From assembly GCA_036939755.1 (NCBI GenBank), contig JALLAZ010001090.1:1-13451 (forward strand): DNA of 13,451 bases. Direction: 5' to 3'. The stretch comes from Stephanodiscus triporus (taxonomy: Eukaryota > Bacillariophyta > Thalassiosirophyceae > Thalassiosirales > Thalassiosiraceae). The translations under genes and the position numbers were made by a program. The stretch's first letter is position 1. The number at the start of each line of letters is the position of its first letter. Of this stretch, positions 2,416 to 11,226 are shown piece after piece. The notes under the pieces are model-generated. The model was not told the origin of the DNA and did no database searches. It saw only the letters and a list, made by a program, of their open reading frames with translations.

Positions 2416-2787
2416 AGTTTAGAAAATGCAATTGTAATAAAATGGAATAATATGATATTATGTCGAGTATTGAGGTGTGTGTTGGGGTTGGGGATGGCAC
2501 GTACGTAGCGGAGGGGAAGGAAAAGAAAGAGCCGACCGGCTCCGAATTGTACGATACTCTTTTCTGAGATTTACTCAGCACATTACCAATTCCAACATGA
2601 AGAGGCGGTTGTTGTGGTTTCTCACAAATAACTGAAGCCCTTAAGTAAGCCCCATCTCTTGGTAGTAAAAAGGCAACAAGATGTCCGACCGTCCAATCGG
2701 TTGACGGACGCCGCCCAGCAGGTGGCAGCTTTTGGGTTCCCGCCGGGAGAAATGCGTCTCTGAACGGAGAAGGACGCCACTTAGCGC
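2416..2787. other. Divergent intergenic region, probable shared promoter
   Basis: This stretch of 372 bp separates the start codons of the membrane-protein gene (-) and the CxxC/Ser-repeat gene (+), so it should hold both promoters. The left part is AT-rich (2430-2465) and the right part GC-rich. I see a palindromic ACGTACGT near 2500 but no convincing TATA box, RNA gene or coding exon. The frame of the + gene is closed by stops at 2761 and 2782. Confidence 0.5.
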
Positions 2788-4104
2788 ATGAAGGCGTCAT
2801 CCTCGTCCGCCGCGACGGCATTGGCCGCCCTGTACGCAAAGGACGCTCCCTTCCTCGAGCGTTCGTTCGACCATCTGACCCCATGCGCCCTGCGTGAACT
2901 GGATCGACGATTGCTCCAGGAATCCTCGTCCGACGATTCATCATCGCGAATGGCGCGGGCGAAAATTGTGGACGGGACCCATCACTCGATACTCGCTCGA
3001 GCTTGCATACGACGGAAGGCGCATCGCTGCCTCCACAAGTACGCGAGCGCGTCCAAGTATCCGCCCGCTGAGGTGGAGGACGCGTTGAAATTTCACGATC
3101 TGCCATCCGAGTTGCGGGAGCGACTCGCTTCGTCGACCCACGACGGCGGCGTCGCATCCCCCCCGACCAATTGGCACGAGGAGTTGGAACGACTGAAAAA
3201 AACGTCCGACGGGGACCGGGGCGGCCTGTGGCGACTCGTGTGCGATCACCCCATGACGTCTTACGTGCCCGTCCAATGCCGGGCGTGCGGACGGGTCGTG
3301 CCGGACCAGTATCCCGCCGAACGGTCCGATGCCGAGGTGGGCCTGGAGGAGACGCCCCCAACGGGTGAAGAATTGGAACTGCGATCCGGTTGGTTCCGCG
3401 GACCCCGCGGCGCCGTCGTTTTCAGGGTGACATGCCCCGATTGCGCGCGCGTGACCCAGTGGTACCGGTCGGGACATCCCCGGATCATGCTGAATCCCAA
3501 CAGACACGGTCGGCTGTGCGGAGAGCAGGAGGATTTGCGCTTGATCCTCGCGGGTTATCTGAACGTTTCAGTCCGAATGGTCGTTCCGTTGGATTGGGAT
3601 CACGTTTGGAGCGAGTATAACGAATCGTCATCTTCGGCGTCGTCGTCTTCGGCATCGTCGTCTTCGGCATCGTCGTCTTCGGCATCGTCGTCTTCGGCAT
3701 CGTCGGCATGGCAAGTCCACGACGGCGATGCGCGTAACTTTTGCCGTCGGCTGGACGAGGGGATCGGGAGTTGGACGGGGGTCTGGGCCATCCACCCAGA
3801 CCCCGATCTTTGCGAGGACGTCACCCCGAACTACCTGACGTGTCGCCGAGATGGAGGAAGAGCGGATGACGTTTATGAAGACGATGATAACATGAAACGA
3901 TACGAGGATGCGGTCCGGGCGGCGAGGGAGGATCCGTCGGGCGGGACTACCCAAAGTAAGACGGTAAATGGCTATCTTCTGTCGCGGGCGGGACTTTCGC
4001 GCGAAGATATAACTTTGGAGCTCAAACTCGCCGCACGTGATTATGGATCGAAAGGATGGTGGCAACTGCATGATTCGCGAGCAGATCTTCTAGATCCCGA
4101 ATGA
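2788..4104 (+). CDS. Hypothetical protein with two CxxC pairs and a Ser-rich repeat
   Basis: A single 438-residue open frame. The start is fixed by in-frame stops at 2761 and 2782, so ATG 2788 is the first possible unless an unseen upstream exon exists. I do not recognise the family. Visible features: a Ser/Ala-rich N-terminus; an HxxL/RxRL-rich middle; paired cysteines C164-x2-C167 (PVQCRACGRV) and C216-x2-C219 (VTCPDCARV) that could form one zinc ribbon with a 48-residue loop; a Ser/Ala tract at 280-307 encoded by a minisatellite; then a Trp- and Asp-rich segment (SWTGVWAIHPDPDLCEDV, 328-345) and an acidic stretch (DDVYEDDDN). No signal peptide or membrane span is evident. It ends 276 bp from the stop of the convergent selenoprotein T gene. 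The balanced, domain-like composition outside the repeat favours a real gene. Confidence 0.65.
   Translation: MKASSSSAATALAALYAKDAPFLERSFDHLTPCALRELDRRLLQESSSDDSSSRMARAKIVDGTHHSILARACIRRKAHRCLHKYASASKYPPAEVEDALKFHDLPSELRERLASSTHDGGVASPPTNWHEELERLKKTSDGDRGGLWRLVCDHPMTSYVPVQCRACGRVVPDQYPAERSDAEVGLEETPPTGEELELRSGWFRGPRGAVVFRVTCPDCARVTQWYRSGHPRIMLNPNRHGRLCGEQEDLRLILAGYLNVSVRMVVPLDWDHVWSEYNESSSSASSSSASSSSASSSSASSSSASSAWQVHDGDARNFCRRLDEGIGSWTGVWAIHPDPDLCEDVTPNYLTCRRDGGRADDVYEDDDNMKRYEDAVRAAREDPSGGTTQSKTVNGYLLSRAGLSREDITLELKLAARDYGSKGWWQLHDSRADLLDPE
3625..3708 (+). repeat. 15-bp in-frame minisatellite (about 5.6 copies) encoding SSSSA
   Basis: Five 15-bp units at 3625-3639, 3640-3654, 3655-3669, 3670-3684 and 3685-3699, then a partial 9-bp unit to 3708. 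Units 2-5 are identical (TCGTCGTCTTCGGCA) apart from the last base of unit 2 against the first unit's variants; unit 1 carries TCA for TCG and GCG for GCA. Each unit encodes Ser-Ser-Ser-Ser-Ala, so changes in copy number keep the reading frame. Confidence 0.93.
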
Positions 4105-4380: not shown

Positions 4381-5341
4381 TTATGCCCGCCTCTTCAAGC
4401 CAACACTTTCCAAAGCCCTGACAACCTCGGCAAGGTTCGGCATTCTTCCAGTCTCCAATTTCGAAAAAATCTTTTTGTAGTCCACACGCCATGTTCAAGT
4501 GCATTGAATTTATCAAATCAATGACCAATAGGATACTTAGTGAAAAAGTATAGTTGACAAAAATAACGACCAGAAATATCTCCTGACTTACCAATTTTTC
4601 ATCAACGTATATTTCAAACGCTCCAGTATTGGCAAACGATTGAACATAAGAGGGTATCACCAAGAATACAACGATGAACGTTAAAGCCGGATTGTCTTTC
4701 ATCTTGTAATAAAACTCCGGTGGTCGCCGCAATCCGGGGACGTACGTCCAAAGAGACTCCCCCACCATAACGAGCACCATCGCGAACAGCTGCACGGCAG
4801 ATATCAAGGCACCCGCATAACCGGTCCAATCCGGCGCCGGGTAGTTCTCCCCGTGAATGCTATTCCACTGTCCCGGGAACTCGCTTTGGAGGACTTCCCG
4901 TAGACGGAGGAAGTTGGCCTTCATGCCTCAGGAGGTACAGAATTGGACGAACGCACGGTGAAGATTTTCCGCATCTACGTGGGGCGTCTGTTGTTGGGGT
5001 AAATTTCAAAGGGTCAGGAACGCGAAGAGAAGGGGGGGGGGCGGCGAGGCCAAGGAACGCGAGCATTAAAAAAAAAAAAAAAAAGATCGCGCCAATCGAC
5101 GCCCAGGTCCAATCCCTCGGAATATCGCATCCATCGCTGCGTCGGGTTTGGTACATTAAATAATAATATCGCCACTCCGCCGTTTCTCCGATGATCGACT
5201 GTAAGCGACGATGCCGCGACCCTAGAAAAGTCAGTGCATTGTTGTGCGCAATAGTGTGGAAATGACTGTTATACTCACGGCCGATGCAGAGCTAATCACA
5301 GCAACCATTACCAGCACGATGAAGCTCGTCATCGTGTTCAT
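4381..5341 (-). CDS. Selenoprotein T (Rdx family, thioredoxin-like ER oxidoreductase), three exons, Sec at UGA
   Basis: Exons 5341-5279 (21 codons), 4987-4592 (132) and 4470-4381 (29 plus TAA) join in phase 0 to 182 residues, close to the 195 of human SELENOT. Introns 5278-4988 (GTGAGT...CAG) and 4591-4471 (GTAAGT...AAG) are GT-AG. Exon 1 is a signal peptide ending ISSASA. Exon 2 holds the redox motif CTSUG, with Sec41 encoded by TGA 4930-4928, then GENYPAPDW, a membrane-associated hydrophobic stretch (ISAVQLFAMVLVMVGESLW), and SFANTGAFEIYVDEKL, which matches the family's STGAFEI segment. Exon 3 gives IFSKLETGRMPNLAEVV, matching the family's SKLESG region. SelT proteins are ER-membrane thiol-disulfide oxidoreductases linked to calcium and redox control. 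ATG 5332 is an alternative start three codons in; a TAA lies in frame upstream of 5341. The gene shares a 179-bp divergent promoter with the next gene. Confidence 0.93.
4928..4930 (-). other. In-frame TGA selenocysteine codon (Sec41)
   Basis: On the minus strand the codons TGT ACC TCC TGA GGC read Cys-Thr-Ser-Sec-Gly, the CxxU-G redox motif of selenoprotein T. The frame remains open and homologous on both sides, back to the splice acceptor at 4988 and forward through the whole of exon 2. The next codon but one is an ATG (4924) that a standard gene finder would wrongly take as the start. Confidence 0.92.
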
Positions 5342-7524: not shown

Positions 7525-8093
7525 TCCGTTCCTCTCTTGGTATCTTACAACCTCTGATGGAGGCTTTCGTGTAACTTCCCACGACTCCTGTTTTTGAGAA
7601 CGCCACTCTGGATGACCTCTTCACTTTTTGTTTGTCGTACGGTCGTCGAGCTCGTCCGTCGTCTTTGCCATTGTGGTCCACCGCCGTTTTGCTATTCCTC
7701 AAGGACGATTCCGATCGTCTCTCGACCCGAAAACATCATTCAACCGCGCCGCTGACGTTCGCTCACAAAAAGCAAGGGGGCCACCACTATTACTCCCCCT
7801 TTTGACTTTTACCTACCGTAGAACACGCAGCCATCCACTCACGCAGCCATACACTTCGCGAGAAAGTCTGAGCCTATGTACAAGCGGTATTCTCGTTTTG
7901 ACGCAGATCCTACATAAGTAAGTGATTTGAACAGCAGGATCGTTTTCCTATTTTCAACACGATTCTAACGATATGTTGGTTGCCTATGTTGCGCGGTGAT
8001 GTGTGTGCGTACTATTATGCACCATCTAGTAAATACGCTAACAAAATTCACTAACAAAAATAGTACGGTAACCGTACTATAAACCCCCCGACC
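7525..8093. other. Intergenic region before the RanBP2 zinc-finger gene
   Basis: 569 bp between two + strand genes. I see no supportable exon or RNA gene. Minor structures: CACGCAGCCAT occurs twice in direct orientation (7824-7834 and 7840-7850); CTAACAAAA is repeated near 8039 and 8051; a perfect palindrome lies at 8060-8080. AAGTAAGTG at 7917-7925 resembles a 5' splice site, so an upstream untranslated exon is possible, but nothing confirms it. Confidence 0.45.
8060..8080. repeat. Perfect 10-bp inverted repeat (ATAGTACGGT / ACCGTACTAT)
   Basis: The arms 8060-8069 and 8071-8080 are exact reverse complements around one A, 14 nt before the ATG at 8094. It could be a dimeric transcription-factor site or a hairpin in the 5' UTR. 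A related palindrome with the same AGTACG/CGTACT core lies at 13210-13226. Function is not known. Confidence 0.75.
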
Positions 8094-8765
8094 ATGGCCT
8101 CTCCTTCCGAGATGATAGGATGGGAATGCGGCGCGTGCACGTACACCAACGACGATTGCACGCGCCGCGACTGTTTGATGTGCATGTCGGAGCGCCCCAA
8201 GCGCTACTTCGTCGTGCCTGGTGCGGGTGTGACAGCGACCGCCAGGACGACTACGGTCGATCGACGCGAGCAGGCGCGTCTCGCCGCCTTACGCGACGTG
8301 GACGCGGATGACGCCCCCCCTCCAGTGGATGAGGAGCCCATTGCCGAGGGGGTCCCTGTGCTTCCTGTGCGGGGGGAAGGCGCCAGCCGTCGTGGCATTG
8401 CGCTAGAGCGTTTGGTGGGTACGCTCGTTGATGTAGTCGGGACGACGGCGAACAACAGGGGCCGCTCTTGTCCCCGCCACTCCTGCTGCGGATCGCAGGT
8501 GGTCGAGCGATCCACAGTGGCGTTTCGTCGCGAGCAGCTTGTCTTTCGCGACCAGGGAGAGGAGGACGTCGTCGCCGTCTACCTCGTTTTGCACGGTGTG
8601 ATGACGTGCAGCAAGGTCGGGTTTTTACCCGCGCACCTAAATCATCACGCGCATGACTACGATGGTCTAGTCGCGCGCGTAATGTTGGTGTATAATGTGG
8701 TGAAGCGGCAGAAGTTTAGGTGCAACTTTGGGTGCTGCGCCGCAAAAGTCATCGGGAAGAAATAA
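8094..8765 (+). CDS. RanBP2-type zinc-finger protein with possible HIRAN-like C-terminal region
   Basis: 223 residues, starting at an ATG in good context (ACCATGGCC). Residues 10-30 (W-x-C-x2-C-T-x2-N, then C-x2-C) are the RanBP2/NZF zinc-finger signature: W10, C12, C15, T16, N19, C27, C30. Such fingers bind ubiquitin or single-stranded RNA. A low-complexity linker (about 45-100) follows. The C-terminal half contains FRREQLVFRDQGEEDVVAVY, then KVGFLPAHLNHHAHDYDGLVARVMLVY. The order 'D-x-AVAVY ... VGfLP ... ARV' resembles a HIRAN domain, which binds DNA 3' ends in HLTF/Rad5-type proteins; this is a tentative reading. A basic Cys tail (RCNFGCC) ends the protein. It is convergent with the transposase pseudogene, 72 bp away, but no transposon ends were found that would tie them together. 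Confidence 0.65.
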   Translation: MASPSEMIGWECGACTYTNDDCTRRDCLMCMSERPKRYFVVPGAGVTATARTTTVDRREQARLAALRDVDADDAPPPVDEEPIAEGVPVLPVRGEGASRRGIALERLVGTLVDVVGTTANNRGRSCPRHSCCGSQVVERSTVAFRREQLVFRDQGEEDVVAVYLVLHGVMTCSKVGFLPAHLNHHAHDYDGLVARVMLVYNVVKRQKFRCNFGCCAAKVIGKK

Positions 8766-8837: not shown

Positions 8838-10167
8838 CTAGTCCGAAAAATACGCAAAGCCGGTCTTGCGCCAGGTGTTGCGGCGCATCTCAATGGAGAT
8901 GTTTTCCTCGGCGGCGAGGATCTATCCCACGACGTCGCGTTGCGTCGTTTTAGCGATTGGCGCATCTGGATCCTGTGCCATCAACCAGTTCAAATACTGG
9001 TCCTTGAGCCTCGCCTTGAACGCCTTGTTATAGCTCATGTCAACGGGCTGCACAAGGCCAGTGCATCCGGGGGGGATGAACTCCACCTCGACGCCGATCG
9101 CCTGGATTGCGGCGATGACGGAGCCCATCATATGGACTCGGAACGAGTCCAGGTACAAGAGGGGGACGATTCCTGGGGGGGCCGTCGCGACGTATGGCGC
9201 GAGGACATCGCTCACCCACTCGAGCATGATGTCCTCTGAAAACCACGCCTTCGGCTGGCATTTGTAGACAGCGCCCGCCGGATACGTCGCGAGTTCGCGG
9301 CGTTCGATCGTCCCCCCCCTCTTCGCTGCAGACAGAAGAACGAGCGACACGATGCAAAGAACAATGGTGAGTATTTCTGTTTTACTTCAACACGATAAAT
9401 ACAAACTCACCTTTGAACACCACCATGGACGGAATCCTCCTTCCCGATGCCGCGATGGTCACCGCGACAGTGACGCGCTGACTGTCGTTTGCCGCCGAAC
9501 GCAAATTGATCGTCCGCGCGCCCACGAAGTCAATGGTATCGCGCGGATCCATCGCCATGTAGGCGGGCGTTTGATCCATATTCAAGACATAGTCTTGATG
9601 ACGCGAGGGATCGTTCGCTCGAGGTACCTGCACCTCAAGATGAGCAAGGGCCTCGGCGCGCACCTCGCCTGGTTCCCGCTGCGCCTTGTGGGTCGCCACG
9701 CGGTGCGTCAAGCCATTTTTCGCAAGAAAGCGAGAAATCGCCATCAAGCGCGCAGAGTAACTCCTCTGTAAGAACTCCGGCTTCAACTTACCAATCTTCC
9801 GCATAAGACCCATTCTTGTGACAGGGAATCCCTTGGACCTCCAATGCTCCACAAAACCTATGAGTTCCTCTTCAACATCCGCAACAATGCTTGTAGGTCC
9901 TTCGTGTAGAATTAGCTTGCTGTCAACAGAGGAATCAGAAAGGGCAACTGCATTCCTCCTCCAAGTCCTAATACTTGACGGTGATACCCCATGCCTTGAC
10001 GCAACCACATTGAGAGGGAGGTTGTCTGTGGCCATCATAGCGTCCACCGCACGAACAATCTTCATTTTCTCGCTTGAGGTGTACATGCGCTTCGGCTGAG
10101 TCCTTTTCTCGATGCGCTCAGCAGCACGGGCATGGTTGATGCCACATGGGTTGTAGATGAGTCTCAT
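8838..10167 (-). pseudogene. Pogo/Tigger-type DDE transposase, interrupted by a nonsense codon
   Basis: Exons 10167-9411 and 9325-8838 flank an 85-nt GT-AG intron (AAAG|GTGAGT ... TCTGCAG|CG); joined length is 414 residues. N-terminal helix-turn-helix at about 29-75 (YTSSEKMKIVRAV ... VASRHGVSPSSIRTWRR) is the Psq/CENP-B-like DNA-binding part. The catalytic DDE_1 domain carries Asp198 (VLNMDQTP), Asp312 (LLYLDSFRVH) and Asp348 (LVQPVDMSYNKAFK), so the triad is intact. Codon 387 is TAG (8924-8922); the frame then continues for 27 family-like residues (ILAAEENIS ... WRKTGFAYF) to a second TAG at 8840-8838. The simplest reading is a Trp TGG changed to TAG. The upstream part of the frame beyond 10167 has no ATG. 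A 386-residue product could still be made. I found no terminal inverted repeats or TA duplication, so element borders are not set. Confidence 0.85.
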
Positions 10168-10285
10168 TGTTGTTTGTCGGAAGGTGAATGTGAGAGAATT
10201 GTGAGGGTTTGTGTTTTGTGTCACGTGGCCAAGGGAGCAAAGGAGGGAATTCTACCCAACCGGTCAGCCATCTGGGTCCTGAAAT

Positions 10286-10315: not shown

Positions 10316-10465
10316 CAACCCAGGAGGCAGACTAAACTCGTACAGTCGCTGGCCTGGTTTGCAGATATGGGTGGGCCGCCCCGCCGCCCCCAAAACACTA
10401 AAGAAGAGGCTACCATACGAACTCAATAACTCCTCTGTCTGTTAAGTCCTGACCGTCCTGGAAGT

Positions 10466-11226
10466 ATGACGGAGTGTCGCCAGATCCTCCTCCTAGTAGC
10501 AGCTTCCGCCATTGCATTGTGCGTTGAAGCTTTCCAGCCACCTGCGTTGACGCATGCTTCGGTATTGAGGGCGGAGGGAGAATGGACTGGCGAGGTGGTT
10601 GCAGATGGTCGCATCAGGGGTTGTGAAATCACTCCTGGTTCTTCTGAAACCGACTTCACAATTCAAATCGATGGAAATGAGGCAGACCTTGGGAATTTCG
10701 GCGCTGCAATATATAAAAAAATCACTGCTGATGCCAAAACCCAGCGATTTCAGGGGTTCCGTCCAGGAACGATACCGCCTCATCTCATCCCAGCCTACAT
10801 GACCTTTGCTATGGACGAAGTGGCTCGTGAGACAGTTTTGGAAGCCATGCAGCAAAACAATATTCGCCCATTCGACAGTGCTAGAGTAGATATGTTGATT
10901 GAGCAGGTATCTATCCCATCGAAGCCAAAGAAAGGACAGAAAAAGGATAAGAAGAAAAACACAGATGCCGATTCGCAGCAAGAGGATGATACACCTGAAA
11001 CATGGCAGACATTCGACACAATGAAGGATGCCATGAAGGCAGGATGGGAGGTATGTTTGTAGTCATGATGAGCATTTTATTCCCATCGCATCAAATCTAT
11101 TCTCATCCATGAATTTTCTTGCAGCCAGGCCAAAGTTTCAGCTTTGTTGCCAAGAATTGCAAGGGTCAAAAAGTCAAGCCTGTGGAAACGGAGCGAAGTG
11201 TACTTCAGAGTCTGTCGGATAAATGA
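10466..11226 (+). CDS. Plastid-targeted trigger-factor-like protein, ribosome-binding domain only, two exons
   Basis: Exons 10466-11050 and 11125-11226 flank a 74-nt GT-AG intron (GAG|GTATGT ... TTGCAG|CCA); the join is in phase and gives 228 residues. Residues 1-22 are a signal segment ending CVEA, followed by Phe23-Gln-Pro-Pro, a good ASAFAP-type plastid junction. The mature part matches the N-terminal domain of bacterial trigger factor, with the ribosome-contacting signature GFRPGTIP at 97-104. Bacterial trigger factor is about 430 residues with PPIase and chaperone arms; both are absent. A Lys-rich linker (SKPKKGQKKDKKKN) and an acidic patch follow. Exon 2 adds FSFVAKNCKGQKVKPVETE. Short plastid trigger-factor-like proteins also occur in plants. 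Likely role: binding plastid ribosomes near the exit tunnel. Without exon 2 the last 33 residues would be lost. Confidence 0.87.

Follow-up and report, generated by a model that had tools for sequence, protein, structure and literature searches.

Selenoprotein T and its host lineage

Selenoprotein T (SelT, SELENOT) is described, in the portion available of one source, as a thioredoxin-like member of the Rdx family that carries a conserved Cys-x-x-Sec motif and is located mainly in the ER membrane (PMC10650576); the accessible part of another attributes to it an oxidoreductase activity in the ER (PMC8395235). Concerning the diatoms, a 2007 report, as far as its consulted sections go, lists SelT as one of 16 selenoproteins in Thalassiosira pseudonana (PMC2375036); a 2020 survey counts, in its available excerpt, over 1000 selenoprotein genes across 137 algae, with 20 to 44 in diatoms (PMC7539508). 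No paper on both Stephanodiscus and selenoproteins was found in the literature searched, and the word selenocysteine is absent from the part examined of the text of a 49-diatom annotation paper. Within the literature searched, the selenocysteine (Sec) form of the Stephanodiscus triporus gene described here may not yet have been listed in print. The underlying biology is known: the gene is ordinary, belongs to a selenoprotein family already described, and is truncated in its public annotation.

We analysed a stretch of 13,451 bases, referred to as the window. It very probably carries, on the minus strand, the selenoprotein T gene of a Stephanodiscus-like centric diatom, in which the UGA at 4930-4928 is decoded as Sec by means of a SECIS element in the 3' UTR. 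Directly established are the gene structure, the homology, the placement of the UGA at the redox site and the presence, in the same assembly, of much of the machinery for decoding it.

Exons, introns and splice junctions

Three exons, at the coordinates given by the original prediction, join on the minus strand in phase 0 into 182 codons followed by a TAA stop; the sole internal stop is the UGA at codon 41, and both introns are of the GT...AG type. Exon 1 (5341-5279, 63 bases) opens with the start codon at 5341 and encodes the N-terminus MNTMTSFIVLVMVAVISSASA, which, judged by eye, resembles a signal peptide, with a hydrophobic start and the ending SASA. Upstream of this ATG an in-frame TAA is found at 21 bases, with no in-frame ATG between the two. 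Intron 1 (5278-4988, 291 bases; GTGAGT...CAACAG) has the first base of its donor at 5278 and the last base of its acceptor at 4988, and contains in-frame stops. Junction 1 (5279/4987) is predicted only from the consensus sites, the phase and the signal-like exon.

Exon 2 (4987-4592, 396 bases) contains the CTSUG redox motif, the hydrophobic insert and the TGAFE strand. It is followed by intron 2 (4591-4471, 121 bases; GTAAGT...AAAAAG; first donor base 4591, last acceptor base 4471), which stays open in the exon 2 frame and, if unspliced, results in a false ORF at 4927-4358. Exon 3 (4470-4381, 90 bases) supplies the C-terminus IFSKLETGRMP... and the TAA stop at 4383-4381.

Looking at junction 2 separately, a motif count shows the joined form (KL followed directly by IFSKLE) in 24 of the 88 relatives, including the S. 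triporus protein P0001, and in all five relatives with an MMETSP source (P0004, P0008, P0013, P0020 and P0024); MMETSP is a transcriptome collection. Intron 2 is read through in 43 of the 88, six of which come back out in frame, and 21 show neither motif. The expected false C-terminus past the intron at 4591 is thus found in many relatives; the 24 others, S. triporus P0001 among them, show the proposed join.

Relatives of the joined protein and public annotation

The joined protein matches Pfam Rdx (PF10262; E 1.7e-15, 57.4 bits, cut-off 22.6) over residues 35-173 and NCBIfam CXXU_selWTH (TIGR02174, SelT/SelW/SelH; E 7.2e-17, 61.4 bits, cut-off 34.2), and a protein search at E <= 1e-3 gave 88 relatives. 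The best of these, P0001 (Stephanodiscus triporus ACHAW5_004922, 140 residues), is named Selenoprotein T in UniRef and is 100% identical to residues 43-182; it is encoded on a different contig (57,233 vs 13,451 bases). Judged by this one protein, the host is very probably a Stephanodiscus or a close relative of that genus. The E values of 1e-15 to 1e-17 together with the complete identity of residues 43-182 rule out chance. Other named relatives come from Thalassiosira, Discostella, Cyclotella and Skeletonema. Two relatives with solved structures, C17orf37 (2ljk) and selenoprotein W (2npb), both align through the C-x-x-C/U site. The viral contigs and phage records searched yielded no relative of SelT.

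Positions 4-72 of the Rdx profile are stretched over residues 35-173, which reveals a hydrophobic insert of about 70 residues; such an insert, placed after the redox helix and ahead of the TGAFE strand, is the hallmark of SelT, and P0001 is identical in this part. Three features by which SELENOT is recognised are found together here: the Rdx / SelT-SelW-SelH domain, Cys-x-x-Sec (residues 38-41) with UGA at the Sec position, and the hydrophobic insert. The signal-like start of exon 1, the redox site at 38-41 and the insert fit the role of an ER oxidoreductase.

A gene model starting at ATG 4924, without the signal peptide and the active site, had been foreseen, and P0001 begins at that ATG and corresponds exactly to residues 43-182. 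The locus is a concrete case of diatom gene sets trimming selenoproteins, with the loss of a signal-like N-terminus and of the redox residues; comparisons of diatom redox proteins built on such models would miss the SelT active site.

Other features are found on both strands of the window. Transposase remains occupy 8922-10251 (minus strand) in separate frames, with a helix-turn-helix part at 9382-10251, whose score falls slightly short of the Pfam cut-off, and a DDE_1 part at 8922-9386. A trigger factor N-terminal domain protein, possibly plastid-targeted, is located at 10430-11062 (plus strand). The stretch 8064-8765 (plus strand) carries WECGACTYTNDDCTRRDCLMC, with no Pfam match at 1e-3; WECGACTYTNDDCTRRDCLMC looks like a RanBP2-type zinc finger. 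A 439-residue ORF at 2785-4104 (plus strand), with SSSSA repeats and no Pfam family, is convergent with the SelT gene, and a long SelT 3' UTR would overlap it.

Decoding machinery and other Sec-type genes in the assembly

The assembly searched, of which the window is one contig, comprises 21.65 Mb in 1,324 contigs. It looks partial; the S. triporus assembly is given as 58 Mbp in a table row of PMC12159174. Both Sec-tRNA and EFSec, which the original prediction had proposed to look for in the same genome, are present. Two tRNA-Sec matches exceed the Rfam cut-off of 47 (83.7 and 71.1 bits), with the anticodon loop CUUCAAA and the anticodon UCA. These matches (L004:1501-1586 and L005:1501-1589) are clearly different from each other within one assembly; the second (L005) carries one additional base where the anticodon stem meets the loop, and is located immediately downstream of an RNase MRP RNA match. 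Three weaker tRNA-Sec matches are better explained as ordinary tRNAs. Concerning the proteins, eEFSec is recognised by its domain III (PF21208, E 1.5e-31), which none of 14 control genomes matches, and its GTPase part is visible in the same frame. SPS2 matches TIGR00476 above the cut-off (E 8.7e-61) and has a single in-frame TGA, at LKGUACK. A match to the KTI12 family may represent PSTK or KTI12. SepSecS has no match in the 21.65 Mb assembly and matches in 3 of the 14 control genomes; its absence is weak evidence, given the assembly size of 21.65 Mb vs the 58 Mbp published.

Five genes other than SelT, namely SPS2, GPx, MsrA, thioredoxin reductase and a SelW-like gene, have a UGA at the Sec position usual in their family. 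In GPx the UGA lies in NVASKUG; the match also crosses a TAG, which stands behind a GTGAG donor after GAQEP and is presumably intronic. The UGA of MsrA is at the catalytic position, in GUFW (L017, about 1333, plus strand); MsrA has five matches in all, and the remaining four are Cys forms. The SelW-like exon YCGGUGYGRH (L002:1385-1411, plus strand) is followed by a GT donor, with the Rdx match on the next exon. The likely last exon of thioredoxin reductase (L021, C1322, minus strand) ends in GGCUG-stop, in a frame which differs from that of the match. Sep15/SelM gave no match in the assembly, but none of the control genomes matches either. SelU-type sequences gave two matches, one with two TGA codons, and a Sec site is recognisable in neither.

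SECIS candidates

A hairpin at 4320-4215 (minus strand), 93 nt after the SelT stop, is tentatively considered the SECIS candidate of the gene; the original prediction mentions neither a SECIS nor the selenoprotein status already known for diatom SelT. It consists of a helix I with its 5' arm at 4299-4293, an AUGA at 4290-4287, a 7-bp helix II and a CGA with its GA at 4252-4251; AUGA and GA face each other across an internal loop, and the apical AA does not occupy its usual position. The published SECIS pattern has the AA 10-13 nt from the quartet (PMC2375036), a spacing that is missing from the SelT hairpin. The fold of the hairpin has a z of -1.0, with a fold at least as good in 30 of 200 shuffles. 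A canonical scan (NTGA, 8-14 nt, AA/CC, then GA) gave no candidates in the 1,381 nt after SelT and 0-9 in 20 shuffles, and an energy-ranked scan placed the SelT candidate first of four, with an energy weaker than the best in each of 30 shuffles. The hairpin has no Rfam SECIS match, and Rfam SECIS_1 has none at E <= 10 over the whole genome, where 133 of 363 first-look candidates were scored; this model is no yardstick here, since the textbook element of thioredoxin reductase is missed too.

The elements of SPS2, SelT, MsrA and GPx share a common core geometry and are located at +84, +93, +96 and +101 from the stop, respectively. An ad hoc rule (AUGA, 1 nt, at least 6 bp, a loop of 8-45, 1 nt, GA) was set after viewing these four. 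When the initial 300 nt of each 3' region, that of SelT included, were shuffled, 2 of 1000 shuffles did as well under it; under a looser rule the SelT score is reached by 54 of 300. The element occurs once on the two strands of the window. The rule selects the four genes and none of seven comparison regions of 600 nt, of which L020 begins elsewhere than at a stop codon, two come after family-less ORFs and one after a SelU-type gene, possibly a Sec gene. When applied to L001-L020 and the window (155,566 strand-bases, overlaps counted twice), it returns 13 elements; seven score at least 14.5, namely those of the four Sec genes, one duplicate of the window element and two unrelated ones.

As proof of a SECIS the rule was rejected, because it fails on both genes which were not used to build it, the SelW-like gene and thioredoxin reductase. 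In the former, an AUGA hairpin found by eye at +66 has a broken helix, and the best score of the region is reached by 101 of 300 shuffles. The latter has a textbook SECIS (AUGA-C-9 bp-AAAAA-stem-9 bp-C-GA) 185 nt after the stop, with a score reached by 4 of 300 shuffles; its loop of 47 nt exceeds the 45 of the rule, and +185 is outside the predicted 50-150 nt. Based on this textbook element, the genome uses the standard SECIS signal. MAFFT gave no useful alignment of the four hairpins in a run with a wrongly chosen SPS2 stretch. It is conceivable, though we consider it rather doubtful, that the diatom has two styles of SECIS, the textbook form of thioredoxin reductase and a reduced form in SelT, MsrA, SPS2 and perhaps SelW. 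In the reduced style the core would be AUGA/NGA, helix II would be short or plain, and no apical AA would stand at the usual distance; if real, this style would be missed by standard SECIS searches.

The in-frame UGA and its possible readings

The UGA at 4930-4928, the proposed Sec codon of residue 41, is the U of CTSUG exactly to the base, as the note that led to this work had placed it, and is separated from ATG 4924 by GGC. The reading frame is homologous both upstream and downstream of it; this had also been claimed, and it agrees with the Rdx match and with the aligned relatives. P0082 has Cys aligned to the UGA position, as do the SelW and C17orf37 chains. P0038 has Trp there, with VQFCSS conserved upstream, and the shared pattern is VQFC[TS]S[U/W]GMKANF; this Trp presumably reflects a UGA translated under a code in which UGA=Trp. 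A motif count places the start of 62 of the 88 relatives at the Met that lies two codons past the UGA position, which is expected if those relatives (with enough upstream DNA) also have a stop codon there.

Were the UGA a real stop, only the 140-residue protein from ATG 4924 would be produced, either a SelT shortened to the point of losing its redox site or the product of a decaying copy. The public model P0001 is exactly that protein, and a convincing SECIS was not found for the SelT gene; however, the reading frame ahead of the UGA is conserved and follows an in-phase exon that resembles a signal peptide, truncation removes both redox residues of Cys-x-x-Sec, and the SelT of T. pseudonana is, according to the available sections, published as a selenoprotein (PMC2375036). 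A real stop is therefore very unlikely. A sequencing error or chance mutation of a Cys codon (TGC/TGT), which would make the gene a Cys-form SelT, has a precedent in the Cys-form relative P0082, but we regard it as extremely improbable: a Cys codon would let gene models extend upstream, and the starts just past the site, in the S. triporus model from the other, 57,233-base contig and in 62 of the 88 relatives, speak against it, as does the W of P0038, which a UGA under another code would give. That same W is in favour of UGA being read as tryptophan genome-wide, under another genetic code; we give this next to no credence, since UGA serves as a normal stop too, the adaptor mu-type gene of the window ending in TGA at its Pfam domain end (profile position 258 of 259, residue 386 of 387), and since the UGA-containing genes are known Sec families with the UGA at the usual Sec position.

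In the preferred reading, that of a SELENOT gene with the UGA decoded as Sec, a nuclear transcript would be spliced from the three exons, and eEFSec and Sec-tRNA(UCA) would decode the codon under the direction of a 3' UTR SECIS. The resulting protein would be a signal-peptide-bearing, membrane-anchored oxidoreductase of the thioredoxin fold with a Cys-x-x-Sec redox site. We infer actual Sec insertion, ER location and redox activity in this diatom from the features of the gene and its family.

Comparison with known systems

The protein nearest to the one described here, P0001, has the same residues 43-182 and the same join at intron 2, but is missing exon 1, the UGA codon and the redox motif, all of which are present in this gene. 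SelW and Rdx12 (C17orf37) have in common with it an Rdx-type sequence and the C-x-x-C/U position, but lack the hydrophobic insert of about 70 residues. T. pseudonana, also a centric diatom, belongs to the same order as the host. While the gene described here has a SECIS candidate only, the SelT of T. pseudonana, compared by its published description, is a member of the same family and, in the sections consulted, a published selenoprotein in the set of 16 (PMC2375036).
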